Below are positions 9,048-64,000 of a DNA stretch of 64,000 nucleotides, piece after piece. How positions within the stretch are numbered: the stretch's first letter is position 1; every line of letters starts with the position of its first letter. The stretch covers positions 27,670,272-27,734,271 of the forward strand of contig NC_026659.2 of assembly GCF_000004075.3 (NCBI RefSeq), given 5' to 3'. The notes beneath the pieces are model-generated. The model was not told where the DNA came from. It ran no database searches and saw only the letters and a program-made list of their open reading frames with translations. Made by a program: the position numbers and the translations under genes. The DNA comes from Cucumis sativus. Lineage: Eukaryota > Streptophyta > Magnoliopsida > Cucurbitales > Cucurbitaceae.

Positions 9048-11661
9048 TCATGAAGAAAATTGCGTGTTACCCTCCAAATCTCTCCTTATAAGTTCAAGGA
9101 CAAGCTCATTCCATGTATCTACAGGGCCAGGCATGCACCAATGTAAGCAATCTTGTGGTGGTGGCTTTCCATCTGCCCCACGTTTGGTGAGTTTATTTGG
9201 GTTGGTATTTCGGTAAGGCCCCGGATGCCCATCGTGGCGATACTCAAAAGCTTCGGTAATGTCCATCAGCTTTAGCCTTGATTTATTTGTCAACTTCTTA
9301 ATTGCAGCATCGAAACCAGCTACCTGTTTACCATGCATGATGTTAGTGAATTTATTTTCCACTCGTTCTCCTATGGAGAGAGGTCTTTCCTTTCCAGTAC
9401 AGGATCCGCCAGTATTCCAGGCCCCACCCTCATAGTGATCAGGAGAATAAGAACGCACGATTGTGAGTCCTGTGTAATTCGGGCTTGTGGCAAGAGAGGT
9501 AAGAATCGTTTCTACAGAAATTCGAAAAGCTTCAATGTTGTTAACCTTCATAGGACGAGATTTATCAGGCCACCACAGCTGTCCTCCTACAATCTCGTTA
9601 TTTAGAACGTAAACAGACTGCTTGGCAAACCAGTGACCAGATGAAATGACAATGACATCAAAAGTTGGAATGAATTCCATGAAATTGTCATCAGGAGCAT
9701 CAAGGTGAAGTTTGACAACACCATCTGGAGCAAAATCTAAAGGCTCATTTGTTTGCTTCACAAGCCATGATGACCATATTCGAACAATCATCACAGAGGT
9801 TGACCTGAAATAATATCTTTGCATTTTCTTATTTCCCCTGTTTTTAGGAACTTCTACCTGCACATATTCAAGAAATTTTTACATTAGCAAAACATTTGAA
9901 AACTGTTTGAATGATCAAGTAATATGCAGAGTAGCAAATAAAATACACAACAAAAACAAAAAGCATCCAACAATACAATCTCAAACATCTACTTCATACA
10001 ACATACAGTGTACTAGAATCACTTAAACACCTCTTGTTTAGAACAAAAAAGAAACCAACATATTAAAATTAGGATGGAAATCGCAAATCAGAGTTTTGCT
10101 ATCAAGTCTAGTGCATTGCACGAATTAAGAGTCAGACATATTTGAACCATCACCAAACAAAACACCCAAATACAGAAGCACCAGCTCCTCCACCTGCTCG
10201 ATTTCCCCAAGGTGAGCAATTACTTAATTCAATTCAATTCATTGCCTTCTCGATGTAACACGTACATAAAGAACTCTATCTAAAAAAACACTTTGTACAA
10301 AGCTCCAACCACACAAAACGTACAAAATATTCAACATTCACAACACCCTGTCATAATAGGATCAGACACTTCATCAACTTCCAATGCAGTCAAAAGAGGA
10401 AAAAGAAGATTGAGTTCAATCTCAACAAAATTTAAAATTAGCAATAACCTGCCACAAAGCGCACAACAATGACTCCATTTGATTGCGAGCAACCGAGTCA
10501 CCAATAAAAGCAAGTGTTTTCCCACTCATCAACTTCAAAAATGTCTTGGCATCAAATCTTGGGAGGTTACATTGAGAGGGCTTCCATCGCCAATTCTCGT
10601 ACTCCCTGTCCGGTCTCCCATTGCCCTGGCAGTTCTGCATCTGTGACAGGACAGGGCATGAATTATTTTTATACAATGGTCCTGCAGAATCATAAACCCA
10701 GCTTCCATGGTACAAATCACAGCCTGCATGATAGAACAGTAAATAAAAACAATTATAATCTTACTGGAGAAGTTATTTCATGGCATTATCTTCTTATTGA
10801 TTCAATCAGGGATATCCTTAGGATGAAGGTCCGTAGAAGCAAACCAGAGTAAGTAAAAACATCGACAAAAAAACCATCTGGGGAGATGTAAATACAACTA
10901 ACGAATATGAAATCCATTATACAAAAATCCTCAAAAAATCTAAATTATGTTCAAACATGAAATCCAACTAGTTGAAGTACTCGTTTCACATAAGGTTTAC
11001 CTAAATCTGATGCCGTGCTCCCATCATCTGGATCAGGTAGGTCGTCTGATTTGACACCAATATCATTTTTAGAACCCATATCTGTATCACTGGAATTGTT
11101 TGTAGAATCTTTGGAAACAGATCCACCATTTTCAACTGTAGATGTAATGATAGAAGCCTCGGACTCATCTTGTGAAGACAATTCTGAAGGATTTGTCCCT
11201 TCATCTCTCTTCTCCTTGGTTTCTGGAACAACTGATCGACTACTTGATTTCGTGGCATCTGGTGACTTGGACTTGGAGGACAAATCCTTATCAATTACGT
11301 CTGAACTTTTATCATCTGCAGGACTATTCGAACTACTTTGAGGTGGTGGATTTGAAGCAGATTCAAATTTCCTGTCAACTATACCCTCATCTGAAAATGA
11401 TTTTTTCGTTACTAGATCTACATTGATGTCATGGGCAGGAACAGTAGCACTTTGATTTCCTAGAGAAATTACAAAATCCAAATCCTGTGAACTATTAACA
11501 CCGTAGAAGTACCCGCGCATTATGGAACCTATTGGGTAGGAGACTAAGAACCAAGATCCAAAGATTAAGAAGATAGCCAATCCTCCAACTGAAATGGCAA
11601 TCCAAGAAATTGTTCTCGGATATGCAGCCATTTGTGAACCCTTCCGCATGGCCCAAGTCAT
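9048..11661 (-). CDS. trichome birefringence-like (TBL) protein, TBL14/15/16-type
   Basis: TBL/DUF231 proteins are Golgi type II membrane proteins; characterised members O-acetylate cell-wall polysaccharides. Exons on the minus strand: 11661-11001, 10723-10449, 9857-9048; phases join to give 581 aa. A single membrane anchor lies near residues 17-40 (ISWIAISVGGLAIFLIFGSW). It is followed by a long Ser/Asp/Lys-rich stem to about residue 220, then the TBL domain from CDLYHGSWV, the GDS motif at about 295-297 (FIGDSVARNQ), and the DxxH motif at about 548-551 (DCLHWCMPGPVDTWNE). Both catalytic motifs are present. The long stem and motif context resemble the TBL14-16 group; which member is uncertain. 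An in-frame TAG sits just before the first Met, and Met11 is an alternative start. Confidence 0.9.
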
Positions 11662-19002: not shown

Positions 19003-19414
19003 GAGCGGTAAAAAGAAAAAGAGTTAAACTGAACGCGGCAGCGTAGGGCGTGATAGAGACGTGGCGAAAATAGAAATTGGACGCAGCTAAAGGAAAGGAC
19101 AGAGAGAAGGCAGATTATTTTGATTGCATCTTTGTTCGTATTTCTTGTTTCTTTTTCCCCAACGAAAAACCGAAATTGGATAATCAGCCCTAGATTTGAG
19201 CTATTCAATCTCTTCTTACGAGATTAATCCTATGCTTATTCGTTAAAGATCAAAAGGAAAAAAGCGACTATGATGAAGATCTTCACTGATTTCTAGATTC
19301 TACGATTCTACGCCTGTTGGAATCTGATTTTTAATTCTTCTCATAGTTTTTCATAATCGAAAACCATTGGAATCTGTGTTTTAAGATCTTCGAATTCGAC
19401 CAAGTTTTTCAGTT

Positions 19415-22400
19415 ATGGGAGCTGAGAAGAAGTGGCTCTTCACTCTCTTCTCAGCTGCATTACTTTCTCTGATTTTGTTACTCTTCTCTACCATTTCCGC
19501 TTTCACAGCCTCAAGGCTTCTCCCTTCCTCTGTTCACCGAGGACTTCACCATCCACCGGCTTTTTCTTACTATATCTATGGTGGACATGGCGATAAGGAT
19601 AGGATCTTCCGGCTGTTGCTTGCCGTTTACCACCCGAGGAATCGGTACCTTTTGCATCTTAATCAGGAGGCTTCCGATGGAGATAGACAACAACTAGCTG
19701 AGGCGGTGAAGTCTGTTCCGGCTATTCGAGCTTTTGGGAACGTGGACGTAGTTGGTAAGCCTGATCGTATGACCTATAGTGGGTCCTCTTACATTGCCGC
19801 AACTTTGCATGCTGCAGCGATTCTGCTTAAGATTGACAGTGGCTGGGATTGGTTTATCACTTTGAGTGCGAAGGATTATCCACTGATCACTCAGGACGGT
19901 AAGCTAATTGTTGAATATTTCCATCTTTGATTTACGAGTTTATATTGTTTTTTTTTTTTTTTAATAGCGATTTTGTTGTATTTGGGATCTTCCAAATGTC
20001 GCCTGAAATAGGTTATTTCATCTTGGTTTTACCTGACGTTATTACTTCTATATTAAATGCTTGACGTGTGGATGAATTACGTGCCCAACAGAGTACTTTT
20101 CATTGTTTTTTAATGTCTCGTCCTTAAGCTCTTGTGCAAAAGGTTATTGGGTCTCTGTTTCAGACTTGAAGTATGACCCTATGAGGAAGGAGGGACTAGT
20201 TAAGGTTTCCAAATCCTTTATATTTGCTTAGATTATTGGGGAAATTTCTGATTCTCTCTAGCTTACATATATTGTCTAAAATAGATGACCTGGTGAGGGT
20301 TTGTGTCAATTTCGCTGGCAGAAAAAGGATACTGGTGTTAATATCCTGAGAGCATAGGAAGCTGCTGCTAATCTGTGGTCAGTTAATGAGGCTAAATTTT
20401 GAATCCCACTTGCCTTAGGCCGTTTTGGCGAAGTTTCATTATTCCATTGGTAGTTTTGCTCTCTCTTATAATCTGAGCCTTGAGTTCAACTATTCGGTTT
20501 TACCCCCACCATCACACACAAGTTATTTTTATTTGGATGAGCATACAAGCAACACTTAACTAAAATCCCCAATAAAATCGTGTAACTAATTAGTATTGGT
20601 TTAATGGCTTTTAACTGAGTTTTAAATCATCAATACCCAGGTGTTCTCCTTGGATTTCCTGTTTTATGGCATTTGGGACGAACTACAATTATGGCTATTT
20701 GGTTGCACTTTTCATTTGTCCAATTTTGTTCCATCCTGGATTGATACCAATATAGTTTTCAAACTTCAGATTATAGATAACACATCTCAATTTATTTTTT
20801 GAAAGACAAGAAACAAATATGAAAAAGGAAAGTGCTCATTTGGATAAAATCATGGTGTTACATTTACTAGATAGATGGACAGATGAGTCTACTCTGAAGG
20901 ATTCTTAATGTTGTATTTCCATTTCCAAGTCTTCCATGCATTCTTTGGGTGTTGGTGAGGTGAGACATAAGTGTTTTGTTCTGTATGATGTCAATGGTGC
21001 TTCATCTCTTGATTTTTACATGCCAGACGTTCTCTTCTGCATTCTCACTTGTATATCTTGCGCGTTAGATTCAAACAAAATATTATCAGTTTGAGTTAGA
21101 TTTGCATATTAAACTTAATTGGTAATTATTAGTGATGGTCGGACAGATGAGTTGCTTAATATAAGTGGACTTATTACTTATAGATTACTGTCAATCCATT
21201 ACAGGATTGTATATAACAGTAGAGAGGAGAGGACCTGCCAGGGATGAATTCCCAATATATGCAAACATAAGCTATGCAAATATCTCTATGTATTTTGGTT
21301 AGCTTACGCTGAGTGGATAACTTATTTACCAGATGAATTGTTGGTTGGAAAAATTCATTGTTGAATCTAAACTGTTGAAGATGTTCTGCAGATTGGGTTT
21401 GACTAGCGAGTTTATCAATTTAATATATAATCAATACTCATGGGTTTGGACATCATCTTGATTTACAAGTTCTAGCATGGACATTATCATGAAGTGTAGG
21501 AGAAAATAATTTCAGATATATGAATATATCCCCATTTTGATTTCACATTAAATTATATGGTCCGTTCAAAAGCTTAAGTTCCTAGGATTCCATATTTTTT
21601 AACACTTCAAATGCATTTATAGCCTGTAAGCAGTACTTTCTAATTTGTTCGTGCCTTTTATTTTATTTTTTTCAGCTTATTGATGATGACTTTCTGTTGA
21701 GTTTCAGACCTTGCACATGCGTTATCCTCTGTCAGCAGAGATCTTAATTTTATCCAGCACACCAGTGACATTGGATGGAAAGAGTATGCGACTCTTCACA
21801 CTAGTTGACACTAACTATCTTTCTATGACTGAACAATTGAATCATCCGTGTCTACATTTTGTTGTAGATCTAAGCGAGTCAATCCAATTGTAGTTGACCC
21901 AGCAGTGTACTTAGCAAGAAGAAGCCAAATTTTTCATGCTACCGAGCAACGGCCAACACCAGATGCTTTCAAAATATTCACAGGCAAAACCCTCTCTATA
22001 TTAGCTATCCAAAATTTCATCCACGGACACTTTTACATACACATGAGGCATTACTAAAACTTGTAGCAATTCTCTTCTGAATTTTCAGGTTCGCCTTGGG
22101 TCATCCTAAGTCGACCTTTCCTCGAATTCTGCGTGTTGGGTTGGGATAACCTGCCTAGAAAACTCTTGATGTATTTCACAAACGTGGTTTGGTCTCAAGA
22201 AGGATATTTTCATTCTGTTATTTGCAATTCACCAGAATTCAAAAACAAGACAGTGAACAGTGATCTAAGATACATGACCTGGGACAATCCACCTAAGATG
22301 GACCCTCACTTCCTCCATTCCTCCAATTTTGATAAAATGTCTCAAAGTGGAGCTGCTTTTGCCAGACAGTTTCAACAAAATGACCCAGTGCTAAACATGG

Positions 22401-22603
22401 TCGACAAGATCATCCTCAACCGCAAACCGAATCAACCCACCCCAGGTGCATGGTGTTCCGGCTGGAACATTTGGTGGACCGATCCGTGCTCCCAGTGGGG
22501 CGACGTCAATGTTTTGAAACCCGGGTTTTGGGCAAAGAAATTTGAAAAAACTATTACAAACCTCTACGATGAGTTGGGTTCACAACCAAATCAATGCAAG
22601 TAA
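19415..22603 (+). CDS. GT14-family glycosyltransferase (beta-glucuronosyltransferase GlcAT14-like)
   Basis: Type II Golgi glycosyltransferase of the core-2/I-branching (GT14) fold. Characterised plant members add glucuronic acid to arabinogalactan-protein glycans. Exons 19415-19898, 21708-21783, 21868-21983 and 22089-22603 give 396 aa with all phases closing. An N-terminal anchor (about residues 8-30, LFTLFSAALLSLILLLFSTI) precedes the domain, which starts near FSYYIYGGHGDKDR. Family blocks seen: HLNQEAS, WDWFITLSAKDYPL, LNFIQHTSDIGWKE, IFHATEQRPTPDAFKIFTG, YFHSVICNS and the C-terminal PCSQWGDVN. Intron 1 is 1.8 kb. Intron 3 starts with GC (CACAG then GCAAAA) and no GT donor there preserves the reading frame. 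Assignment to family is firm; the exact member and acceptor are not. Confidence 0.92.
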
Positions 22604-45805: not shown

Positions 45806-46813
45806 CAACTCCGTGAACTTTGAAAGCGTTCAAAAGATTTCATGTTATTTTCAAAATTGCAATATTACTTTATTAGTCTTAAAGAGGAGGGGGGAAAGTT
45901 CTCAAAAGGAAAAATAAAAATTGACGTTAAATAAATAACTAAAGTTTAGAAAAAATTATTTACTTCCAACTCGACTAATCATTTAACATTTATGGTTAAT
46001 CTAACTAACACTATTATTTATAGTTAATCTGACTAATTAGTATGTGAAAATCACGTGGACGAAGTATAATATAATAGTAAGAAACATTGGACAACATATA
46101 GACACAAAGTAATTGACCGAATGACGTCCGGCAGAAAACGAAAAATAGCTCACGAGAAAATTTTCAACGCTCTCGTTGTATGCAAAGGGTATGGAAAACA
46201 AAAAATCGAAAAATTCCTCTAAATTTTCAGGTAAATTTTAAGTTATCTCCAAAGTACAAGCTTATAAGCTTACAAAACCTAAACTACAAATATTATGTTT
46301 GGTAGCCAAAATCATTTTTTCACTGCTAAAATCACTTTTACACAAAAATATAGGGTTTGACAATTCAATGAAAGTGATTTTAGAAAAATAACAGGTGTCC
46401 TGTTGATAGTTTTGAAATCATTTTTATTGATTCAAAATCAAGAGTTTGTTACCCGACATAAATTTAATTGTTTAGAAATCAATTGTATCTAAATATTTTG
46501 TTTTCTTCCAAAATTACTATTCTAACTATCACTTGCTACTATTGTATCAATTTTCCAATAGAATCAAAATAAGATTAAACTTTCAAGATTTCTAAAACAA
46601 ACAACAAACATTCAATCTCGAGCTTTAAGGATATTAAGGAAATTTAAAAAAGGATTGATTGATTAAATTTTGTATCAGTTATTTGTAATTATTTTGGAAG
46701 TTCAAACCAAATTACATATAGAGAGATTGTGCAAAACGTGAGATGAAAAAAATATGTAAATTACTTATGATTATGAGAAACAACACATAAAGATTATGAT
46801 GTAACCAAAGAGT
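45806..46813. other. intergenic DNA between REX1-B and chimeric PPR genes
   Basis: About 1 kb, AT-rich. The segment 46290-46500 repeats wording such as AAAATCACTTTTA and resembles a dispersed repeat also hinted at 32540-32762. The right end should contain the PPR 3' UTR. No gene is seen. Confidence 0.55.
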
Positions 46814-49600
46814 TCAATCTAATCTTGTAGCCAAGCTATACCCAGGAACCTTAGCAAGTTGCCTTTGTTTCATAACATCTCTCATCTTTTGAGCCTCTTT
46901 CCACATGCCATTGGTAGCATAAATATTGGACAAAACCACATAAACACCATCATTCCAAGGCTCCAATTCTTGTAAATGTTTACCTGCCCATTCCCCAATC
47001 TCCACATTCCCATGTTTCTCACAACCTCCAATCAAACATCCCCATATTATCGAATTCGCCTTCATCGGCATCTCTTCAATCATCCTTCTCGCCTCTTCAA
47101 GCAACCCTGCTTTACTGAGCAAATCGACCATGCATCCATAATGTGGCAGTTGAGGCTTGAAACCGTAAACATTTTTCATCATATCGAAGTAATGTTTCCC
47201 TTCGTTGATCATCCCACCGTGTACACAAGCGCTTAGTACCCCGACAAACGTAACTTGATTAGGAGGAACTCCTGCTTCTCTCATGAATTGGAAGTTCTCG
47301 AGCGCTTGTTTCACTTGTCCATGCATTGCATAACCTACAATCAGCGATGTCCAGGATGATACATTTCTATGACCCATGTTCGAAAATACTTTCATTGCTA
47401 AGTCCATCCTACCACATTTTCCATACATGTCGATGAGGGAATTTAGCATCAAAATGTTCGATTTCCCTGTGACTTTCACTTGAAACACAAATTTGTGCAT
47501 TTGGAGAGACAGTTCTAGGTTGCCTAGACTACCACAAGCTGATGTTACGCTAACAATTGTAAAATCATCTGGTTCGAGCCCACTTTGTCTTAACTTAATG
47601 AACATATTGACTGCCTCTTTAGCACGCCCACCTTGAGATAAACCAGCTATAATAGCATTCCAGGAACCCAACTTCCTGTTATGGTTTTGTTCAAACACCT
47701 TACATGCACACTCAAGATCTCCTATCTTTGAGTACAGACTGATGAGGCCACTTTCGCTATATTGGTCAAACTCAAAACCAAGCCGTATAGCAACTGAATG
47801 TAATTGTAATCCTAAATCAAAAGCATAAGCTAGAGATAAAGCCTTAAATACAATTGGAAGTGTGTAACAATCAGGCAAAATGCCTGCTCGCAACATGTCG
47901 ATGTATACAAAGAGGGCTATTCTTGGGACCTCGAGCCTAGTGTATGATCTAATAATGATGTTCCAGTAAAATGAAGAAGGATGGTTTTCCAACATGTTGG
48001 TTCTTAAAACATGGGCATGAATTTGGTACAATTCTAATACATTAGTACAGTTCATCAATAGGGTAGCGACAATTCTCGCATGGTCCATGTTATTGTAAGA
48101 GGTGTATGTCAACCAGAAAGGCGTCTCGGTCACAGCATTCCTCTCTGCAGGCTGCTTATTTTGCTTAGGCTCATCCACAAATTGCAAATCGTTAAATTCT
48201 ACCAGTCGCCTTAACTCGTTTGTCTCAAGGTGCTTGGTCTTGTAATTTGGATAGCAATGCCCTGCCGTCGTTAGGAAGGTATGTCGTGAGCTCTCTGGTG
48301 AGCTGCCAACGTTTGTGAATTTGCTCTTTTTTTCATCACAAATACCAAATCTCTCTTCGCATTTGTAATCTGACACGACATCTTGAACAGGAAGCACAAG
48401 GCACTTGCCTTCCTTGTGAATGTCAGGGCCTCCGTTTTGAAGCTCAAACTACACAAGCATCAAAGATCTTTACCTATCTAAAACTGGAATGTATAATTGT
48501 TCAACAGATACCTTTCAAATCAAACAATATGTCTACATATTACATAAGTAAGAATAAGAATAGAATGGGATTGTGTACTAGGCACACTTCGGCGAGGATA
48601 AGTTAAAATGTGTTTCAAATCAAGATAATAAGTAGAAATGTACACCGTTTGCCTACACAGCTTAAGAATATCACAATCCACTCTGACCATAGAGGTAGAG
48701 GGGTTGTTTATACTACGTTTGACGATGAAGACCAATTCAATGAAAGTAGTAATTTTATTCAAAACACTCCCGGTTCATCCCTAACAAAACAAAAGAGAAT
48801 CAAAATGAGTAAGATGAGACTTCTTTCACCACAATCTAAACCCCGAGCTAAGCGATAATTATGGACCTTCGGACACCAGTCAGCTCAAGACATCAATGAT
48901 TTAATGATGCTAAAGAAAAGAGGAAGGTCGCCTATATATGTACTACTCAATTTAACAAGAATTGAATGATGAACAATCCAAGCCTAGTGGCCTTAAATAA
49001 GTCACCATGGATCACCAATGTTGGCTCAAGCAGCTTCAAAGATCCAACTTAGAATAATACAATCTTGGGTTTAGAAAATAGGGCTCTTTCCTTCAGAAAT
49101 GACCCTCACCACTATTTCACTTCGAGATACTTCCAATTTATCTTCACTCCAACAATTCACGAGAATATCCATTCCTCTCCAAAATTAGAACGACTAATGA
49201 GCAGATTCTCCATCTCATCCCCAATGAACCAAAGGCTAATAAATTTTACAGGAAGCTAAACTGTTTGCAGGGGGTCACCAACGATTCAATTACTTACTTA
49301 AAGAGTACAGTTAGTGTATTCGAAAGAAAATCGAATACAGTTTACGGACATTATACTCCATGAAAACAACATATGAACAAACAAGAAGAGAAACAAAGAA
49401 CAAACCTTATTGTTCCCATTATAGCACACGTACTCATTCCCTGATAATGGCTCCGGAGCGTAATGATAGAATCCTCGCCTAGCACGGGAAGCAGCAGAGG
49501 AAAGAGACGGTAGAAGCAGTTTGTGAAGGCTGGAACTGTTGCAATCGACGTTCTTAGGTGATAGTAGGAGAAAGTGTGGGAATAGCTTGAAATTGTGCAT
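46814..49600 (-). CDS. chimeric gene: helicase-derived N-terminus fused to an E-class PPR protein (At1g77170-like)
   Basis: Two exons on the minus strand, 49600-49406 and 48442-46814, join in phase 0 to about 607 aa. Residues 1-65 (MHNFKLFPHFLLLSPKNVD onward, with SSAASRARRGFYHYA) copy the first exon of the adjacent helicase. Residues 66 to about 183 copy the start of its last exon: shared blocks include YKTKHL, LVEF and NKQ-AER, with the dsRBD-like core degraded. From about residue 184 (Met at 48088) it is a PLS-type PPR protein with an E domain: repeats such as LGSWNAIIAGLSQGGRAKEA and MLNSLIDMYGKCGRMDLA, ending LEPWNDGVYVVLSNIYATNG. PPR proteins bind organellar RNA. The Arabidopsis relative is annotated mitochondrial and about 467 aa; here only 424 PPR residues remain, lacking its own presequence. 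The acceptor is ambiguous (TAG at 48449 or GAG at 48443; both in frame, differing by Phe-Glu). The frame is also open upstream to 49735. Splicing is inferred. Confidence 0.8.
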
Positions 49601-50743
49601 TCTAACGGAGAAGATCAGACATGGCGGAAACTCCGGTGTCCCATAGCGCCGCCGTCGAGGTGCTTTCTGAAGAACGCCTTCACCGGAAGCGATTGCCGCC
49701 TTCGAATCCCGCCTCGGCTCTTCACTGGACTCCAACTTTGACCAAAATTGAACTAAAATATTTTTTATATTATTTTTAAATATAATAAAATAAAAGAGTT
49801 TTACAAAAATGAAAACAAATTAACAAACTATTTACTATTTTTAATAATTCTACATATAATTCCTATTTATAATCCATATAATTGGTTTTTGATGATTAAA
49901 GATGAGTTCTATACTTTTAAATATGTCAAGACTTTACAGAAAAATATCATGTCAATTAAGTTGTATTCTTTTTTTGCCACATTTTTATGGAATATATATA
50001 ATGTAATATAAATATACATTATTAGAGAAAAAAAAGACCATTAAATTTCAGAAGCAAAAGACGAAATTCACTGTTTGAGGTTTTGACAAACAATCTAACA
50101 ATGGATAGAGTAACTATAATGAGTATAAAACTTTAGCGATTTGCAAATATAGCATCAATGAACTTTTATCACTTATATTTATTTGATAGATTCCAAAATG
50201 TTATTATATATATACACTGATACTTTGAAATTAATTTCTATATTTGCAGTACTTGAAAAATAAAAACAATACAATTTTTTTAAAAAAATCAATGAATGCC
50301 TCAGTCTGCAAAGATTTGATAGGGAAAACAATTTGCTGCTAAATAATTGTAAACCCTATATCAACTCAAATATATATGTTACACAAAGCCAAAGAAAATC
50401 CCAAACAAAGAACACAGCTATCACTTTCTCAGAAAAGACAAACTAAAACTAACTAAATTTAATTTATTATTCCAAGTTTAATAACATAACGCCAAGGCCC
50501 TAGCTCACATTCTCCTAAATTTTGAGAGCTATAGACACCAGCTCCATCAATGGTATAAATAACTTATCATGATATCATGCCCAAAAGTATACACCTTGAT
50601 AAAGACTTGTTCTCTTGTCGTCCATCAACCTATCTTGAAGCATGAAGTCGAAGTTCGAGTTGTGCAAACTCTAACACTCACCAGGAACTTGTACATGCTT
50701 CAAATGAAGTAAAAATCCACCTGCTGGTATATTGTCTATCAAG
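49601..50743. other. chimeric gene 5' flank and helicase 3' flank
   Basis: The first 60 bp or so beyond 49600 resemble the 5' leader of the helicase gene (TTAGAATG context, CCGCCATG, GGGACAC-like wording), so the duplication includes non-coding leader. The minus frame stays open to an upstream Met at 49735. From about 49745 to 50650 the DNA is AT-rich with no gene; the right end is the helicase 3' UTR. Confidence 0.55.
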
Positions 50744-53700
50744 TCAACGACGTTTAGACCGCCTTCGTTTTCCAAGAAGTTTTAGCATGTTGTCGGTTAC
50801 ATCAACAGGAGAGTCATCGTCTGAATTCGCATCATTGTTGTCAGAGGTTTGTGTCAACCAGGCCAGAGACTCTATAGCAGCATCCCTCTCGGCAAGCTGC
50901 TTGTTTTTCTTAGGCTTACCAACGAATTGCATACCCTTAAACTCTACTAATGCCCTAAACTCGTTTGTCTTGAGGTGCTTGGTTTTGTACTTTGGAGGGG
51001 AATGTCCTGCCCTCATTAGCAAGGTCTGAAGCAAGCTCTTTGGGTTGGTACCATCCTTTGTGAATCTGTCTTTGCTAGACAATGCTTGCTTCTTACTGTT
51101 TCTACCAAAGACAAATCTCCCTTCGCATTGGTCGCCCGACACCAACTCTTGAACAGAAAGAACAAGGTACTTACCTTCCTTGAGAATATCAAGTCCGGGG
51201 TTCTCAAGCTGAAATGACACGATCATCAAATTATCTTTTACCTTTTCTAGAAGGATTAGGATTTATCATCAAAGTAACATATTAATCAAATAATAAGTTC
51301 AACACCTTCTGATCCCTATTCTTCTTTCGCTTATTTAGCTGTTTGTATAATTCTCTTGTAAAATGAATTCTTATTATTAATAGAGAAGTTTGTCTCTGTT
51401 TCAAAAAGTAATAGTTATAAATTCAAATCCTACTTACTTTGTTTTCAATAAGCTTATCAAGTTCTTCCTTGAGTTGCAAATAGCAGTCCGCCAAACTAGA
51501 ATCCATAAAAAATTCAACGTAGCCATTTAACATTTTCAAATGACCAGCCTGAAAAAGGAGATATGAATAGTGTTAAGACACCAAAAAAATTAAATTGTTC
51601 GTGCAAAGTTCAAACCCGGGAATACATCACCTGTACACCACGATTTACTGCTCCACCAAAAAGAATCAGCATCGAATCAGATATGCCAGTAGAATCGCGT
51701 AAGAAAACTGTATTGACCTTCACTTTCTCGCCAAAGACCAGCCATGGAAAGGGAATTGTATTGTAACGAGCATTTACAGAATTCTGTTGCAGAATCATTA
51801 CAATGTTAGATGACTACGACACCGAAGCGTGTAGCGAGATAACAGATTTGAAATTCCAGCCGTCTTTTACAAAAAAAAAAAAAATTTTGAAATTCAGTTA
51901 AGCCTACCATGACACTGCAACATATTGAAATAAAGCATGACATATCTGTATTAACTCTAACCAAACAAAAGTTGTGAGAGTGGATGGCAAAAGTTTCTAG
52001 CATCACAGAGGTGTTTATAACTTGGATCTTTGTTTGGACATCATTACAAAGATGTTATACACCAAGAGGCAAAGAGCTAGCCTTAGTCCTTGGAATTGAA
52101 CAGCATTAGGGTGTGTTGACGAAAATTTGCATCATTGGATAAGATCCCAATTAGATATATGTTTTGGACTTACCGCATACAGCAGGACCTGGCCATCATC
52201 CATGGTTTTGAAGGACATGGATGTCTCTCTGTGCTGCATATACGTGAAAAGTACTCAGGAGAGGAGAAAAATGAGATCGAGCAGGGTTAGTTACTACAAA
52301 GAATTAGTTTTATTTACCACAACAGATGCTACGCCAGGAAAGAGACCAGAACAAATGATTGCACGAACAAGAGACTGGTTGTGGCTTAACTTATTACTTG
52401 TGCTACCATCTAAATCAACTATTCCTGCATCCTTTAAAATGAAGGTAAACTGCCTTCTAAGTGAATCGATTGCTTGAAGTGTTTGCATAGAAAGGAAGTT
52501 CCTCCAGCAGTACTCATAGGAAGACCCTTCTCTTTCTGCATCTTTCCATCCCTCATAAGCACGAACAAGCGCCATATGATCACTGTAGTCCTTCGCAGAA
52601 AATCTACCCTTCGCTATCCCGGCTAACTGAATCATGGAAACAACAATATAAACTTCAATCTCAAAAACCTATCCCCATGAATCATGGCAACAACTCAGTA
52701 AGTGTTAAATTATGGAAGAATAAGATTAGTTAGCCGTAATAATTATGCATACTTCAATAAATGATACTTACGTTCTTTTTGTCCTGAGGCAGAAGAAAAG
52801 GATCTCTGACACTAAGGCCGGAAACTATAGTAAGGATAGGATCAAAGCATTGGAAGATAGCACCCATAATCAGCATTTTTCCTAGCTTAGGGTCAACGGG
52901 AAGCATTGACAAAAATTTTCCTATTCAAAAACAAGGAGGTTGAAGATGAAACAACCTGAGTAACAGAATGAGAATAATATATTAAAAATACCATATAAGA
53001 AAGTAACTAACCAAGGTTTGTCAAGTTCTCCTTCTCATCAAATGCCCCGATCATCTTTAAAAAATCAATGGCATTTTGTACCTGTCAAATAACAAATGAG
53101 CCCCTGTTCTCATTTATGGCTGAAATTTTCTGTTGACGAGAATGAACTGATCCCCGAAAAAGAAGAAGAAGAAGAAACACAAAAGAGCTTACAGCCAAGG
53201 GTTTTGGTGGCTGTAGAGCAGATGACAAGAATTCTCCTACACTTGAAACCTGCAAACTTTTTATTTGAAGGCAGAGGGAATTTAATGGAGTTCTCAAAAG
53301 CTCAGGAAGTTGATACTCAGAAAATGCTGTAAAAACACATTTTGGGTAAAGATGATAACATTTTCCTGGCTGAACACGGCCAGCCCGACCCCTTCTCTGC
53401 AACCAAAACCATTATCCAAAGATCAAGCACTTGATACCATAAGCAAAGAGAAATATCAAGTGTATTTCATAAGCAAAGAGAAACATAAAAATACATCTAC
53501 TTCTTAAGTTTTTCTTTTAAAAATTACATGATAGAAAAATATAGGAAAGTGAACTTGACTTACTTGCCGGGCAGATGCCTGTGATATCCATGAAGGTAAC
53601 AGACAAGGTGTATTATTTAATGCATCATACGTGGTTTCTTTTGCTTTTCCACAGTCAATAACAAAAACAACATCATTTATCGTGATGCTTGCCTCTGCCA

Positions 53701-56700
53701 TATTAGTGGCAAGAACTACTTTACGGACATTCTGAGCAGGTTTCTCAAATATGAGTCTCTGTAACAACGGCAAAGAAGAGATGAGAATTTCAAGAAACGA
53801 GTGGTTCTTAGAGAGAGAGACTAGTGGTAATAAATTATCAATTGTCTCCGTAGATATTTTCAGCAATAGAGGAAGAAAATTTTTGGTACAATGGAAGCTG
53901 GCAAATTGTTCACGGATGTGTCAACTGTCAAGTTGCTGGGTTCACATCGGTGGTTTTCTAATACTGTTCATCATTGTTTCTATTTCTCCACCATGACCTT
54001 GATACTTAAAAAATATGATAATAAAATAGATCTAAAAATTTTTACAATTCACTAGGAAAAATAAATAAACCAACCAACCTGTTCAGATGTTGCCATTGAA
54101 CCATGGCATGTCAAAAGCAAAACCCTGTTTGGATCTCCTAGAAGTGGATGAGCTCTCAGTTGATCCCTCAAACTGCTAATATCCTCCCATCCAGTCAGGA
54201 ATACTAAAACTGCACCAGGTCGTTCCTTCCGACATATGTGGCACAAAACAGCCTCAATAAGATTAAAACCTATGCAGTCAGGCATCCAGGACGAGAGAGA
54301 ATCTCGCGTGTTGGAACTGTAATTTCCAAAGGTGGATTTATCAAGCGCATCCTGAGCAAGAGAAACAAAGTGAGATAGACCATATACTGCTAATTTAGCA
54401 AAAAGTTTCAAGAGATACAACTATACAGGTACTTCTATCAAATTAAAAACTTATTATCAGATCCAATTTCTTATGTACGCAACTGACTAATGGAAAAATT
54501 ATTACTTGATGTGTTCAAATTCAAAAAAAAAATTTGCTGAAGGTATGTACGCAGGCAATATGTTCAAACCAATCTAAATGCATGGATAGCTTAAATAACT
54601 TCATTCCTTTGACCATTTTAAAAATTCTTAAAATTATGAGATCATATCCCATTCTATTTCTTCATCTTTCATCAAGTTTACACAACTAATTAGAGGGATT
54701 TTTTTTCTTTGACCATTCATAAATTCAAACCATTTAGGCTCATAATTTACCTAGTACCATGTGCATTGACTCTAGGAACCTTTTTTTTTTTCAATATCCG
54801 TGAGTGTTTGGACCAGCTTACACGCACTTGATTAATTTCAGGCGACAACCCGCCTGACCCTACAACATTTGGGTGTCAAGATAACTCGTAGGAACTTAAT
54901 TCCCAGGTAGGTGGTTATTGAGACAATGTCTCCTTTTCACCACTAGGTCAACCCATGATGGTTGACTCCAAGAACCTTTTAACCACCATCATATCCAAAT
55001 TGATCATAACAAAGAACTGATAAAGCTACACAGCCTACACTAAACTGGCAGAAAGGCTACCGCTATTGAAACAAAGTGTCAAACCATCAATTTAAAAGTT
55101 GGAACAGTCTAGTCTAACAAAGCTCTCATATGGAACTTCTTATGAGGATTTGCATACAAATGAGAAAATAAGAAAATGCAGTAAAGGCAGCTATCAAATG
55201 TTTAAAATTATCGCCACTGTTAAAATTCATTTCTTCAAATGCAGGTATTAAAAAATATTCAAAATTCAAAGAAATCACAAAAGACCAATAATTGTAAGAA
55301 ACGTGATGTACATATGTACACATACCTCCACAAGAGAAGTGATTTGATTTTTCCTTTTTCGTGGAGCAAGTTGTTTCTGAGTTTTCCACACTTTCTCTTG
55401 GCCATAATCATCAATTTGATTGAAAGATGTCAACTTGTAACCAGTCGTTTCTAACACATCTTCCAGAAAGTATGACCTCACTGGAAATGTAAAACCCTGA
55501 CAACAATATGCAATTGAAAATAGCAAACCCCCCAAACAAATATTTAAACATCCAGTGACCTCAAATAATGAAAAACCAACTCCCAAGCATATCCGAATAA
55601 TTAGTGCTAGCTGTAAAATGATGCACAGGATACAGAATTCCAAATAGATTATTCTTTTTTTAATATGAAAACAATATACATGTCTATGTGTGTATGTGTG
55701 TGCCCACTATATAGATTACAAACGGATTATATATCACATATTACATGGGATACATCAAGAAAGTCATCCAAGAGTGTGCAAAGAAAGAAACATTCATGAG
55801 AAATGTAATAAAGATCATAGTTGTAGCAAGTGAAATGTTTTGCATGGATCCTACTTGAAAACAAGTAAAAACAGTTTAAAGAGCAAGACAAACCCTTAAG
55901 ACATGCATGAATTAAACATTATGAAATTTGATTGAGCCTCTGCTCACTTTTTAAATCTTTCTGCTTTCTTTTGCTTCTCTCTTTTCTATAAGTGCCACAC
56001 ATCAAGTTCTAACATCTCTACTTACAAATAAAGCATGCACTCAAGTTTCCAGGGACAAGTCCTAAAGGGCATTAAATGTAAAACTAAAACGTGGAAACCT
56101 GCTCACAAGAAAGGTGAAATAAAACTGAATGCCAAAATTTTGGTACAACTAACCTTAACAAAAAAAAAAAAAAAAAATCTTGACATCTAACATAGAAAAC
56201 AACAAACAGTTTTAACTAATGGGAGATATCAAGCTTTAACTCACTGGGATGTGAATAGTTGGTGCTCCTCCAAAATAACTGGAAAAAAGTTCAGCATTTA
56301 AAGTGGCACTCATCAAGATTAATCTTAAATCCCGGCGACGTGGAAGGAGATCCTTCAAGACAATCAACAGAAAATCTGGAAAACAATCAAATGAATACAG
56401 ATATTAACAATACTTATAAATAGAATAAGTAAAAGAGGCCACATCTCCTTCCCCCAAAAATCAGTTATTTATGCTAAAAAAAATTCAAGGAAAAGTCAAG
56501 AAACCTATAAACCAAACCTTCATTCATGCCTCTCTCGTGAATTTCATCCACAAAGACATGGGTAACCCCATCTAGATTACGATCACTTAGAAGCCTCCGA
56601 AGTAATATACCACTGGTGCAAAACAACAGATGGGTGTTTTTCCCTTTCATACCTTCTAATCGAACTTTATAGCCAACCTACAAAAAATCTTTGATGTGGT

Positions 56701-59536
56701 ATGGAAGTGAAAATTAAGAGTAACAAATTTCAGAATGCTTCAATTCATGACTATGCATTATTTGCATGCATATCCAAGCATTGTGAAGGAGGGAATGCTC
56801 ACTGTTTCACCAAGGGATTCTCCTCGCTCTATGGATACTCTTTCAGAAACAGCCATTGCAGAGATCCTTCGAGGTTGAGTGCATATTATGCTACAGAATG
56901 CTCCTCTACCAGTTTCAATTTCTGATTCTAATAGGTATTGAGGAAGTTGTGTAGTCTTACCACATCCAGTTTCTCCAGATATAACTACTACCTATCATTG
57001 TAACCAACTTGGGATTAAACATATAATACTATCAAAGTGAAGGAACTTCAAACTCTTCTGCATTTTGCAAGAGAAAAAAATTACAATAACTTCCTTGTGA
57101 ATAAAAGTTATAAAATTGTACACAAGATTGGATGATCAAATACCCTTCCTAATCAAGAGCAACTTCGGTATTTCTAATAATTCAACATTTATTGGTATTG
57201 TTGGTAGCAACGAAAATACAAACAGCCATCTCCGCAGCATGCTATGAGATTCAATACAAAAGGAGCATTTGACTTTAGATTTTATGCGGTGAAGTGAATG
57301 ATTTAAAAAAAAAAACAAATCAAAAGTTTGGAGATATTCTGTGTCATCATAATGACAATACTGAAAAGAAAAAATGGATTTTGAAATCCATTCTACCTCC
57401 AAGCTCATGGGGATAATTAAATTATCCATGACGCTAGTAAATGGAATCCTAAGTTCTTGTGAAGTAATAATACGTCGAGATCAAATTTGAATGACCTTAA
57501 AAGGAAGAAAAAAAATTACTCAAGAGAGTGGCATCCAAAGTATATGATTCTTTTCAAAATAAATGGCCATGTTTTGCTATATTTCTTATCTGGTGGTTTT
57601 TCTTTTTAATTTGAATTTATAATTTCACATCACTCTGCCTAATAGACCACCTGTGGTACTTTGTTAATGGCAATGACTGGCTCCTTTGATTGAGCGAAAA
57701 TATAATAAATAGTTGACAATTTCTAAGAAAACCTGATTTTCTGCTATTGCCTGGAGTAGTTTTTCCTTCTCTTTGAATGCTGGCAGAGACCTCCTGAAAT
57801 CCAGTATCTTCCTCCCTTCAGGTGATTCCTGTCAACAATGAAGCACATGAGTTAGACTATACGCAGTAGGTAATAATTGTTATTAGTTATTATTATGAGC
57901 CTAGTCTAAAAGCAACATTCCATACTTGCCAAAACACACACACACACACAGAAAGTAAAAAGCAGAAAGGGAGCATGTTTATCAACCATAGTCTAGACTC
58001 ATTTCTGCATCTATATTTGAAGATCAAAATTTTCTCTTAACTCTCAAAATAGTGAATATTTGCCGGGACCTGGGGTAGGGGCATATGAGTTTCTGTTATT
58101 CAAAGTTACAAGCACATGGAAAGGGGAATCTAGGAGCTCAATGTGGAGCATTATTCTGATTACCTGCCATGCTCTTTGCATATTTCGCATCCGCAAACTC
58201 CTCCGCTGAAGTACCTTTTCCATCACAGACCCATCAAGATAAGGATCTTCACATTCATCCATATTCACATCTTTAACCTCTTCAATGGACTTGACATCAT
58301 TTGGAATATCGCTACCCTTTCCAGAACTTAACCGAATGCGATCACAATGTTCCTGTAGTAAACCTTCCACCCTCCTTTGCAAACTTAAAGGAATAACAAC
58401 CTGTAAATATAAGAAATATAAAGCTTTGCTCCGATGGAATGATATTTGACACAAGAAGTACTGTACTCAAACTGTCAAAATCAAATAGCTCGTTACCTCC
58501 CTTTGTGGTCGTTTATCATCCAAATCAGGCCGGTAGTTAGGAAGGGGAACTTTGCTTGCAACTACCACTTTTCCATACATTGAACTGCCAGTGCAGAGCA
58601 AATTCTAACTAAACCAAAATATCATTAAAAAAATTATATAAAAATATGAATAAAGTTCCCCATCTACCAGTAGAGCCCCATCTTTTTGGCAAGGTTTGAG
58701 ATCTGCTCAAAGTCTCTCCTGTCTCTGTTGTCTCTGGATACAATCTCTTGATCCCTTTCATTTCGAGATAGCAAACTAAGTTTCCATTTCCACTCGTCAA
58801 TGTTGGCCACAGAGGATGAGGCCTACGATTTTGTAAGAATAACTAGTTTTAAAATTAAAACAGCACAATGTACAACTCGACAATGAAGTGAAATGAGAAT
58901 GATAACAGAAATTCAATTCACAGCCTACAGCGCAACAAGGAAAATACTTCGCCAGACTAAACTCGCTCCAAGGGATGCATCCACTTCCATGCAAAAACCT
59001 AATCAGGCGAGGCCACTCAATCCTAATGAAAACAATCTAAATAGCTAAAATTACAAAACACGCATCCGAGCCAACTAAGATTTAATTGATACGGGGCCAA
59101 AAAATACAAAAAGAACCCAAATCTAGTCGCCCACTTGCGCTCATCACTAAACAAGCATTTCAAATAAATTTTAGACCAGCAAATCAAATGATTCAGATGT
59201 CAAACAGACCTTTCAGAATATAGAACTGGGGATAAATATCGACATGTCAAACAAAGGAATAGAACAATAAGGAACAAATATGTGCAAAAAAGCACAGTAA
59301 GGAACGAAATCACCTACCGTATTGTTATCACCATCGCACTCGTACTCATCGTCCGAGAATTGCTCCGCCGCGTAGTGATACGAACATCGCCAGACTCGTG
59401 AAACAGAATAGGAACGAGACTGCTGCAGAAGCAGTTTAAGTGGCCTCACAGCAAGACCGTGGTTGCTGGACAGGTCGCAGCTAATGTTCTTCGATAATAC
59501 TAAGAGAAAATTTGGAAGTCGTTTGATATTATGCAT
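50744..59536 (-). CDS. DExH-box ATP-dependent RNA helicase, DExH5/DExH3-type, with dsRBD-like tail
   Basis: Nineteen exons on the minus strand: 59536-59318, 58822-58668, 58584-58497, 58400-58164, 57828-57733, 56991-56803, 56677-56518, 56375-56245, 55496-55326, 54351-54079, 53758-53564, 53396-53193, 53081-53012, 52920-52772, 52626-52318, 52233-52174, 51783-51631, 51548-51438 and 51208-50744. All phases close, giving 1144 aa. Residues 1-73 are rich in Leu, Ser and Arg and low in acid until the end, like an organelle transit peptide. Motif I GETGCGKT is at about 271-278, DEIH at 372-375, SAT in [11 protein letters not shown], and motif [10 protein letters not shown] at 638-645. HA2 and OB-like regions follow, then a dsRBD-like segment (about 1045-1110: [20 protein letters not shown] to [10 protein letters not shown]). 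Such enzymes unwind structured RNA. Closest in recalled sequence is Arabidopsis At2g01130. An in-frame TAA precedes the ATG. Its first and last exons have copies in the next gene downstream. Confidence 0.93.
54781..54961 (-). mobile_element. SINE insertion with target-site duplication, B-box region missing
   Basis: Read on the minus strand, the element begins near CATCATGGGTTGACCTAGTG, an A-box-like pol III promoter. It continues GTTGTAGGGTCAGGCGGGTT and CACTCACGGATATTG, and ends in an A tail (T run at 54781-54791). This wording matches a widespread plant tRNA-derived SINE as I recall it. In that family a B-box block sits between AGTCTCAATAA and CCACCTACCT; here the two are directly joined. 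Flanks TTGACTCTAGGAACC (54766-54780) and TTGACTCCAAGAACC (54962-54976) agree at 13 of 15 bases, a target-site duplication. It lies in helicase intron 9, in sense orientation. Confidence 0.85.
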
Positions 59537-59559
59537 TCTAACAAAGAAGACTTAATCAT
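59500..59559 (-). other. short upstream ORF overlapping the helicase start codon
   Basis: An ATG 23 nt before the helicase start opens a 19-codon frame ending in TAG inside the helicase coding region (different frame). The duplicated chimeric gene keeps a shorter uORF at the matching place. Its effect depends on where transcription starts, which I cannot see. Confidence 0.35.
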
Positions 59560-60902
59560 GGCGGCTGATATGGTGTCCCTTCATCACACTGATCATTTGT
59601 ACTCTGGCTCCGGCAGCAGCAGGCGATAGCCGACTAGAAATACCAAAGAGCTTTGTCACTGATACTCAGTTCGATTGCCGCCTTCGAACTTGAGCCTTCG
59701 TTTTTCTTTATTTCTTTACTTCTTTTATGCTCCCTCCCTCCCTCCCTTAGTATTGAATTCCGTTGGTTTTATTTTCTTTTTAGTTACATTCTTTTTAGAC
59801 TAAGGTTTGGTTACATTTTCTATAAGAAAAATGTTAAAGGTAGGTTTAAAAATGCTAAATCCAAGCGTGAGTTTTTAATTACATTAGGTTACAATGGTCA
59901 TCAAATTCAATTTAATTTTTTATTTCTTTAAGTAAAAAGATTAAAAAAATTGAGAGAAAGTTTATAAATTTAATAGCAAAGTGTGATATCCATCGAGTAA
60001 AGAAGTTTACAAGTATGTATATTTAGGATTTAGGGTTTATGTAGATAAACGAAGTTAATGTCACCGAAAGAAGAGTTTGTGAAGGCTTGTTTTTGGTAAA
60101 TGTTTGGTAACAAATTTTTGTTTTTAATTCTTAATAATCGAAAGATACAAGCTTGCAAAATCTTCCTACCAATTACCTAACATGTTAATGGTATATAAAA
60201 AAAATATAAGAGCAAAATATGGTGATAATTGTAATTATACATTTAAAACTTTTAACAATAAAAATTAAGTTGTCAAAGTTGTAAAATTAGATCATAAAAC
60301 TTACATAGTTGTATAAATTATATTGATTATGTAAATTTAATTATTCAACTATGATCATACGTAGATTCAATATTTACAACTATTATAAGATCTATGTTCA
60401 ATTTTAACACTCCCATAAGTTATAAGGTCAAATTGTTTACGAAAAGAGAACGGTAATATCACTCTAGCTATGATATTTTGTAATTTTGATAAAAATATAA
60501 ATAACAAATCAGTATTATTTTGTTAATGTATGATGGTATTTTTTAAAAAGTATAAGAAAAATTTGACAAACTATTTACATTTTATAAACAAAACCACTAA
60601 AAATGAGAAAAAAAATTTTAAAATAACAAAAGAAAAGAAAAATTTCGGTTACATTTTTTTAACTGTAAAAATAGTAAATCTAAAAATTATGGCTATATTT
60701 CTCAAATTTGTAATATGAAAAAACAATCTTATTAACCATTTTTATTTTTTAATTTTCCAAAAAATGAAATTAAATTACACAAATTTTCTCATTTAATTGA
60801 ATTTAAAGATTTAAATCCATCTCTTGACACCAAGACCTTAACTCGACGAGAACTTAATCAAAATACTCAAATTGCCAAACAAAACGCTAAAAAGCCAAAA
60901 AC
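59560..60902. other. intergenic region between divergent helicase and RBL genes
   Basis: About 1.4 kb. The left 150 bp belong to the helicase promoter and leader, moderately GC-rich and without a clear TATA box. From 59800 to 60850 the DNA is AT-rich with no recognisable gene. Confidence 0.6.
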
Positions 60903-61033: not shown

Positions 61034-64000
61034 ATGAATGCCCCAATTATTGGTGAGTTCCTGCTTTTTCCCCCTAATTTCAAACCAAAATCTCTCCCAA
61101 TTGCACCGTTTTTTCGTTATTTATTTCTTGTTTTTTTTTTCCTTTTGCGAAGATCCGTTGCAGGGAGATTTCCCGGAGGTTATAGAAGAGTTTCTTGAAC
61201 ATGGAGTTATGAAATGCATCGCCTTTAACCGTCGTGGTACTCTCCTAGCAGGTACCCATGGCTGGCTTAGTTTGTTCGTGATTAGAAGTGCTTTGTTGTC
61301 GCTTATAGGAAGAAGATTTTGCTTTTGCTTTTGTTGTTTTTTGGGTTTTTTTGCTGCAGTTAGGCCTGTTTCTGTTCGTGTTTTAATTGTTAGTAACCGA
61401 AGTTGTTGCTCTCGATGACTTTATATCATAGAATGGAGCTTTTGTTGTCTATTCTTCTTCTTCTCTTTTTTAACAGTCACTGTTATTTGATGAAGTTACT
61501 TACAAAATATTGATTTCTGTAATGACTAATGATTACGCGTAAGAATGAGTTCATGCGGGGGTGTTGAAATATTCAATTTTTCCTTCTTATCTCCTCAGCT
61601 TGGGTAGGTTTCTATGTTCTTACCTGCGTTTCTTCACCTGGACAACTAATTTCGTCTAGGCGGTCGAATATGCATGATTATAGGAGGGAATCGAGGGATA
61701 CAGTATATATATAAATTCTATAGTTCTTCTACATTTCTCAAAGACAATGGACAGTCTAATTTTGTGTTGTTTTTTGGTCAAGCTCAGATAAACATGTTAA
61801 GTTTCATGTCACACTAACTGATACTGGGGTCGATTACACAAGCTTTGATGGCAGCCATCTAGGTAATACCCGCTAAATTTTATTGCTTTGTTGTTATTGT
61901 TGACAGCTGGATGCTCTGATGGAAACTGTGTTATTTGGGACTTCGAGACCAGAGGCATCGCTAAGGAGCTTAAAGATAAAGATTGTGTTTCTGCCATTAC
62001 TAGTGTTTGTTGGTCAAAATATGGCCACCAAATTCTTGTATCTGCTGCTGATAGGTCATTAACATTGTGGGATGTTCCCAAAGGGGAGAAGATTAACCGT
62101 ATAACGCTGCAACAGACACCCTTACAAGCTCGTCTGCATCCTGGATTGTCTCAACCATCTCTCTGCCTGGCATGCCCTCTCTCATCTGCTCCTATGATTG
62201 TTGACTTAAAGACAGGAAGCACAACTCTACTTCCAGTTTGTATTTCTGATACAGATACGGCTTCTGCTCGAGGCAAAGTTTCGGATGGAACTCCACCTTT
62301 TACTCCTACAGCAGCTTGCTTTAACAAGTATGGCAACCTGGTTTATGTAGGAAATTCTAAAGGTGAAATACTTATAATAGATTATGAAAGAATTCAAATA
62401 GAGGCCATGGTTCCAATTTCTGGAGGTGCTGTTGTCAAGAACATAGTTTTTAGTAGAAATGGTCAATACCTGCTCACTAATTCTAACGATAGAACAATTA
62501 GAATATATGAAAATCTCCTACCCAATAAAGATGGATTGAAAGTCATCGATGAAATTACAAAAGAGTTCGATGGGCTTGATGGTGCTGAGAAGCTGAAGGC
62601 TGTTGGAACAAAGTGTTTAACTCTTTTCCGGGAGTTTCAAGATTCGATAACTAGAATGCACTGGAAAGCACCTTGTTTCAGTGGTGATGGTGAGTGGGTT
62701 GTTGGTGGATCTGCAAGCAAGGGAGAACACAAGATTTACATTTGGGATCGGGCAGGTTATCTTGTAAAAATCCTCGAAGGTCCTAAGGAAGCATTGATTG
62801 ATTTAGGCTGGCATCCGGTTCATCCCATTGTTGTTTCTGTTTCACTTACTGGCTTGATTTATATTTGGGCTAAAGATTACACCGAGAATTGGAGTGCTTT
62901 TGCTCCTGATTTTAAAGAGCTCGAGGAAAACGAAGAATACGTAGAAAGAGAAGATGAATTTGATCTAAATCCTGAAACTGAGAAGGTAAGATTGTTATCG
63001 TTTTTTTTCCTCTGAATTTTCAGTTCTGTGCCTAGTTATATGACAGGTTTGTGATTTCAGGTGAAAGAACCTGATGTCAATGAAGATGAAGAAGTCGATA
63101 TCATAACCGTGGAGAAGGACTCAGCTTTCAGTGATTCAGATGCTTCACAAGATGAACTATGCTTCTTGCCATCTATCCCATGTCCTGATGTTATTGACCA
63201 ACAGGATAAGTGCGTAGAGATTTCTTCAAAAATGATCGATAATAACAATTCTGGATCCCCACTTTCAGAGGAGGCCGGTGTAAACGGTCGCACAACCAAT
63301 CATGCGTCAAGTCCAATGGAAGGTAAAATCTCAGTTGCTCAGTTCCTTGTGTGTTTTCTTGTATCTTTTCTTTGCTACCCTACAAAAAAGAACCATTGTG
63401 CTCAGTTTTCTTTGAAATTAGCATAAAGCCTTTAACTCAGTTTAGTTACTCAAGCAAGCACAAACATATCAAAGCTACATTGGGTATCCCCTGTTATTCT
63501 TCTAAATGGTATATGTGTTTCTAGAAGCAAACATATTTGTTATAACATGGGTATATTAGAGAGATAGGACGAGAAGTCAACGAAAAATTGGAGTTCTGTT
63601 CTAAGGACCATCTCTTTATCACCTTCTTTTGCACTTTTGGCTGACAAAGGGCCCTTTCTACCAAAAGTATCTTTGTGAATTGTTTTGAAAACTTTAGGAG
63701 TATCCATCAATCATCAAGTATTTGTAAACTTTTCTGTAGCCTTATCGTAATTTATATATAACCAAACTTACATTAAAAGGCATTTCTTTGAACCAACTGA
63801 ACCAATAGTTTCCCTATGCTTTTCTGCAACTTGTTCAGTTCGTTTCATTATTCAATAACTGTTTGGTTTGCTTTGCAGTGTTAGACAACACCGACGATGC
63901 AGGAGGAGCACGGATGAAAAGAAAACGGAAACCATCAGAGAAAGGACTGGAATTGCAAGCCGAGAAGGTGAAGAAACCCTCTAAACCTTCAAGTAGATTG
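61034..64000 (+). CDS. RBL: RBBP5-like WD40 protein (plant RBL, COMPASS subunit), partial at window end
   Basis: The RBBP5/RBL protein is a core subunit of the COMPASS-like complex that supports histone H3K4 methylation in the nucleus. Exons 61034-61052, 61153-61251, 61907-62985, 63061-63322 and 63879 to the window edge give 527 codons so far with all phases correct. It starts MNAPIIDPLQGDFPEVIEEF. WD repeats follow: KCIAFNRRGTLLAAGCSDGN, SVCWSKYGHQILVSAADRSL, YLLTNSNDRTIRIYE and IYIWDRAGYLVKILEGPKEA. A D/E-rich tail begins near LEENEEYVEREDEF, then a basic nuclear-localisation-like RMKRKRKPSEKG. Exon 3 alone carries most of the propeller. The 3' end lies beyond the window, probably close, since the family is about 530-560 aa. 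Two E2F-like sites lie just upstream. Confidence 0.92.

Follow-up and report, generated by a model that had tools for sequence, protein, structure and literature searches.

Immediately downstream of an RNA helicase gene in the cucumber genome, and on the same minus strand, a gene running from 49600 to 46814 opens with what resemble the two ends of that helicase and continues as a PPR protein. How could such a gene have formed, and do the borrowed pieces serve the protein to which they are joined? Working within a 64,000-nucleotide stretch of Cucumis sativus DNA (the window, G000:C5:27670272-27734271), we find a chimeric origin to be well supported and a working product likely, if unproven. The reading that we consider probable from the sequence is of a two-exon chimeric nuclear gene in which the helicase-derived exon 1 would act as the organelle presequence of a PPR-E protein and the old dsRNA-binding domain (dsRBD) as a spacer. 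A survey of the literature, judged by titles and the starts of abstracts, returned no published account of this fusion.

Helicase and PPR components of the gene

The parent gene splices from 59536 to 50744 into a coding sequence free of internal stops and, as a preliminary description of this DNA had placed it, lies directly upstream on the same strand (Table 1). Motifs judged by eye suggest a DExH-type helicase, the Pfam search of the parent having covered its last exon, and we take its class to be that of the DExH-type RNA helicases with a C-terminal dsRBD. Comparison of 46300–50740 with 50741–60400 by blastn at E <= 1e-3 gave exactly two matches. One pairs 49627–49404 with 59564–59316, in parent exon 1 (67% identity, E 1e-15; at the protein level, 32 of 65 aligned residues identical); the other pairs 48475–48090 with 51243–50835, in parent exon 19 (72% identity, E 1e-58; 68 of 118 residues). 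In a tblastn search of the window with the helicase protein, the two copies were recovered at E 1.15e-10 and 1.5e-30, respectively. The homology of both pieces to the helicase is far above chance. The earlier identification of 49600–49406 as a diverged copy of helicase exon 1 (59536–59318), and of the start of exon 2 as a diverged copy of exon 19, thus survives direct comparison, as does the remark that roughly half of the duplicated residues have changed: 83 of 183 (45%) differ.

Table 1. Positions in the window of the parent helicase gene, of the pieces of the chimeric gene and of a shared leader word
Feature	Positions	Strand	Details
Whole parent helicase gene	50744..59536	-	19 exons, 1144 aa
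Parent helicase exon 1	59318..59536	-	Source of the copied first exon
Parent helicase exon 19	50744..51208	-	Double-stranded-RNA-binding motif; Pfam PF00035 dsrm, E 1.7e-07
Leader word	49690..49706	-	17 bases identical to the parent 5' leader (parent first base 59688); exact word
Chimera exon 1	49406..49600	-	65 codons; helicase exon 1 copy; proposed organelle presequence
Proposed chimera intron	48443..49405	-	Donor AAG/GTTTGT; acceptor before 48448 or 48442
Exon 19-derived part of exon 2	48089..48442	-	118 codons; degenerate dsRNA-binding domain
PPR part of exon 2	46814..48088	-	424 codons; PPR motifs and E motif; stop 46816–46814

Across the genome (226.6 Mb in 88 contigs), a search with parent exon 1 listed three places, namely the parent, the copy (E 5.3e-8) and a third match at E 2.58, leaving no match with E < 1 beyond the first two. 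The six places listed for parent exon 19 were headed, after the parent itself, by the copy (56%, E 5.7e-30), followed by two further helicase-like loci, L011 (49%) and L012 (54%), and by two matches at E 5e-4 and 0.02. The second of these loci (L012, G000:C5:27542310-27542702) is on the opposite strand of this contig, some 128 kb ahead of the window. Traces of exons 2–18 were not found in 46000–50743, where the best other tblastn match had E 1.4.

Homology extends a short way beyond the exons at both pieces. The 27 bases adjoining the exon 1 ATG align with the parent leader, further up which the 17-base word recurs, and roughly the last 30 bases of intron 18 are retained in front of the exon 19 copy, indicating that the acceptor region was inherited from the parent. 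Shared leader and intron remnant together argue that the chimera formed at the DNA level. Retroposition of a mis-spliced helicase mRNA was considered and is ruled out by the remaining intron 18 sequence.

The chimera resembles DExH-type helicases with a C-terminal dsRBD in having homologues of the parent's exons 1 and 19, and differs in that the helicase core exons were not found in the copy and the dsRBD profile goes unmatched: dsrm gave no match in the exon 19 copy at E <= 10, in a HMMER search whose filters discard most matches above about 0.1. Structure models built from two-row alignments reached a mean pLDDT of only 33.4 for the exon 19 copy and 34.4 for parent exon 19, values too low to bear on the fold of the copy.

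The remainder of exon 2 carries tandem PPR motifs (PF13041, E 5.7e-44; PF01535 in seven stretches) and a C-terminal E_motif (PF20431, E 4.9e-18, residues 477–536 of 542), with PPR_2, PPR, PPR_1, PPR_3 and E_motif all above the Pfam cut-offs and the DYW family absent among the eight Pfam families listed for the exon 2 protein. Read by eye, the motifs run in P-L-S order and close with E1-E2. Its PPR motifs and E motif without a DYW family match are those of the E subgroup of PLS-class PPR proteins, from which it departs in that its 183 N-terminal residues are helicase-derived and not its own. The PPR part resembles a synthetic PPR-DYW protein in the PDB (E 1.8e-148), and the exon 2 protein had no match among prokaryote genome contigs. 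Among the 80 of 787 candidate places in the cucumber genome that were scored, the best-scoring other match to the PPR part is 42% identical and the identities listed reach 46%, the gene itself aside; among the places scored there appears to be no near paralogue able to replace it. Helicase homology stops just short, by a few residues, of the first PPR helix that can be recognised, which suggests that the PPR gene's own N terminus was replaced.

Intron, reading frame and N terminus

As first described, exon 2 enters the PPR protein without a stop, being open from 48448 to 46816–46814, and both candidate acceptors (first exon base 48448 or 48442) preserve the frame; the N-terminal exon is homologous to the first exon of another gene and in frame across a possible intron. 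A stop at 48451–48449 directly precedes the exon 2 frame and no in-frame ATG occurs between 48448 and 48088, so that unspliced exon 2 could not be translated from any ATG above 48088, the first in-frame ATG of the exon, to within about two bases of which (48090) the helicase homology extends. Neither helicase piece has a stop in the frame used. The other two frames of the exon 19 copy contain 5 and 9 stops; the three frames of the exon 1 copy contain 0, 0 and 5, and because a second frame is stop-free the openness of that piece alone means little.

For splice sites we used a small scoring matrix derived from the 18 parent introns, with leave-one-out scores for the parent's own sites. The donor at 49406 scores 7.18, within the parent range of 3.0–10.9 and above 10 of the 18 parent donors, and the two acceptors score 6.64 and 5.16 (parent range 1.1–10.9). 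One donor-like site (49110, 8.35) outscores the chimera donor; among acceptor-like sites, one within the intron at 48780 (9.85) beats both candidates, and another five have scores intermediate between theirs. These scores allow the proposed join and fall short of proving it. The 957-base intron (48449–49405) has no second match in the genome at E <= 0.001, in a search that skips common words. Aligned with parent intron 1 it scores 45, and the best of 100 shuffles scores 54, leaving homology unsupported; against parent intron 18 it scores 49 (best shuffle 48), and against the parent exon 2–18 region 43 (best shuffle 72).

In the first 50 residues of chimera exon 1 the net charge is +4, with 8 Ser and 9 Leu (parent, net +7), while the 50 residues that follow a start at 48088 have a net charge of 0, 3 Ser and 6 Leu. 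The controls, six usable PPR paralogues that need not be organellar (L006 was left out), range from +1 to +4, values themselves not far from 0, so composition, by which the presequence was judged in place of a trained predictor, is a crude guide. Hydrophobic moment (0.49 against 0.43, controls 0.28–0.69) did not discriminate. The PPR gene may have taken its import signal from the neighbouring helicase.

Upstream of exon 1 the 500 bases before copy and parent align with a score of 45 (best shuffle 52), giving no support for promoter homology. Position 49769, ahead of the copy, carries a TATA-like word; a scan of 414 bases ahead of the parent showed none. The chimera has two short upstream ORFs ahead of its exon 1 ATG, a point against the chimeric reading. 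By eye, related-looking minus-strand uORFs can be picked out before both genes, MGHRSFRHV at 49644–49617 in the copy and MKGHHISRHD at 59584–59554 in the parent; the leader uORF was possibly kept after the duplication.

Selection and age

Between parent and copy, the NG86 method gives dN 0.254, dS 0.666 and a ratio of 0.38 (95% 0.22–0.65) for exon 19, and dN 0.33, dS 0.81 and 0.41 (0.19–0.77) for exon 1; over the 183 codons of both pieces the pairwise dN/dS is 0.39 (95% 0.25–0.59) and dS 0.72 (95% 0.50–1.07). Pairwise likelihood estimates are 0.48 for exon 19 and 0.51 for exon 1, with fixation at 1 costing 2 delta lnL of 6.9 and 3.7. The constrained parent branch enters into every one of these pairwise values. 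With L011 and L012 as outgroup helicases, a branch model assigns 0.48 to the copy and 0.09 elsewhere, the copy branch differing from the rest (2 delta lnL 18.8) and not from 1 (2 delta lnL 1.8). Silent sites in the outgroups have reached saturation (internal branch about 12), so how the changes divide between copy and parent is poorly determined. We set aside a three-ratio model for its implausible value of 12.2 on the parent branch. The dN/dS check suggested in the preliminary description thus divides: the pairwise ratio is low, and that of the copy branch is compatible with 1. Residues invariant in three helicases were kept at 30 of 47 positions and others at 36 of 67 (Fisher p 0.34); invariant residues having fared no better, and the dsrm profile having been lost, the helicase-type role of the exon 19 part appears to have gone.

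How often would the frame stay open under neutrality? We simulated this with 4000 runs per setting, the parent standing in for the ancestor and indels and pre-loss selection being ignored. With every difference assigned to the copy, the chance of an open frame is 1.6–5.6% for exon 19 (93 substitutions) and 7–11% for exon 1 (62), and their product 0.1–0.6%; the product becomes 0.04–0.2% at 121 + 80 substitutions, 0.8–2.4% at 60 + 40 and 3–7% at 40 + 27. The copy may also have been a whole, constrained helicase during part of its history. The earlier argument from open frame to working product accordingly keeps its first half, in that such a frame is rarely kept open under neutrality, and is weakened by a copy-branch dN/dS indistinguishable from 1: as a sign of a working product, the frame is suggestive only.

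Plant substitution rates run from 1.5e-8 to 6.1e-9, with which the dS of 0.72 suggests an old duplication, of roughly 24–59 million years, and leads us to expect the chimera in melon and perhaps in watermelon.

Origin, proposed function and alternative readings

The history first put forward, a tandem helicase duplication followed by loss of exons 2–18 and fusion to a PPR gene, fits the homology, the order, the strand and the intron remnant; the order of its events is one that we infer. An old helicase duplicate would once have sat between the parent helicase and the PPR gene. Its exons 2–18 would then have been deleted, with ends presumably inside intron 1 and, as homology makes visible, inside intron 18, and a second deletion would have taken the final codons of the duplicate, its stop included, along with the region in which the PPR gene itself once began. 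Transcription would now start upstream of the duplicated leader, with splicing from the exon 1 donor to the acceptor inherited with exon 19; an organelle import presequence would be formed by the 65 residues that exon 1 encodes, and the 118 exon 19 residues, with no dsRNA-binding profile, would be a tolerated spacer or be trimmed off. Proteins of this PPR class work in mitochondria or plastids, where PLS-E proteins bind organelle RNA and recruit an editing enzyme, and family knowledge would have the PPR-E part here bind a specific organelle RNA and do likewise. A separate, indirect argument for a working product draws on the intact PPR part, the organellar nature of its class and the absence of a basic N terminus from exon 2 alone. 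Arabidopsis At1g77170 is a candidate orthologue of the PPR part. N-terminal peptides of At1g77170 are listed in a study of mitochondrial peptidases (PMC4986872).

The leading competitor, which we think unlikely, is that the PPR protein is produced by itself, with ATG 48088 as its start or via some other first exon, and that the helicase pieces are relics contributing at most promoter, 5' UTR or intron. The ATG at 48088 is the first in frame in exon 2 and has favourable surroundings (A at -3 and G at +4), helicase-type constraint is not seen in the exon 19 part, and there are other acceptor-like sites, the one at 48780 above both candidates in score and five between them; the product would, however, have no basic N terminus, five out-of-frame ATGs (48381 to 48138) lie ahead of its start, and the frame upstream is open beyond neutral expectation. 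Less probable again is a dead or nearly dead locus, its chimeric frame open by chance or through recent origin and no protein made. This would agree with the copy-branch dN/dS, with the 3–7% neutral product at the lowest substitution counts, and with a recent loss of exons 2–18, which would let earlier constraint explain the open frame; it sits badly with a 424-codon PPR-E part that is intact and above the Pfam PPR and E_motif cut-offs, and with the want of a near paralogue as replacement among the places scored (identities listed <= 46%).

A wider version of the chimeric reading, which we hold doubtful, is that the PPR factor swapped its own start and presequence for those of the helicase and gained the dsRBD as a new N-terminal part, so that leader elements (including the related uORFs), import signal and perhaps regulation would be shared by the two genes and a splice from helicase exon 18 could even yield a helicase–PPR protein. 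Taken by itself, use of the chimera's exon 2 as an alternative last exon of the helicase strikes us as very improbable. Parent exon 18 ends at a codon boundary and the copied acceptor, downstream on the same strand, has the same phase, so that 990 helicase residues and 542–544 from exon 2 would join in frame, some 1530 residues in all. Against this, exon 19 precedes that acceptor and brings its own end, and nothing in the sequence requires the fusion.

The presequence-bearing chimera has parallels. PMC2031878 cites rice rps11 and plant cytochrome c1 as having gained presequences by duplication or shuffling of targeting exons, and PMC8317393 describes a presequence that conifer sdh3 has from a different nuclear gene, one for a mitochondrial protein. 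As in those accounts, the targeting signal of one nuclear gene would have been duplicated and joined to another protein, import being proposed in our case. The cucumber locus differs from rps11, cytochrome c1 and sdh3 as they are presented there: its recipient is a PPR gene, presumably with a presequence beforehand, and the donor is the adjacent helicase, whose last exon with its dsRBD came too. Presequence borrowing by exon shuffling is thus already known, and the cucumber locus looks like a new case of it. If expressed, it would be a clear natural example of an organelle-type protein that lost its own start and survived by capturing that of a neighbour, with parent, old intron remnant and leader word all still visible at the locus. 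For gene models, a start at 48088 would omit the proposed presequence, and splitting the locus would omit the chimera.

Elsewhere in the window, an open stretch at 9048–9878 on the minus strand matches PC-Esterase (Pmr5/Cas1p type, PF13839, E 4.7e-57), and two on the plus strand, 19385–19930 and 22067–22603, correspond to the first and last parts of a Core-2/I-Branching enzyme (PF02485) and are perhaps exons of a single gene. Past the helicase start, on the opposite (plus) strand, 61867–63015 is an open stretch with WD40 repeats.
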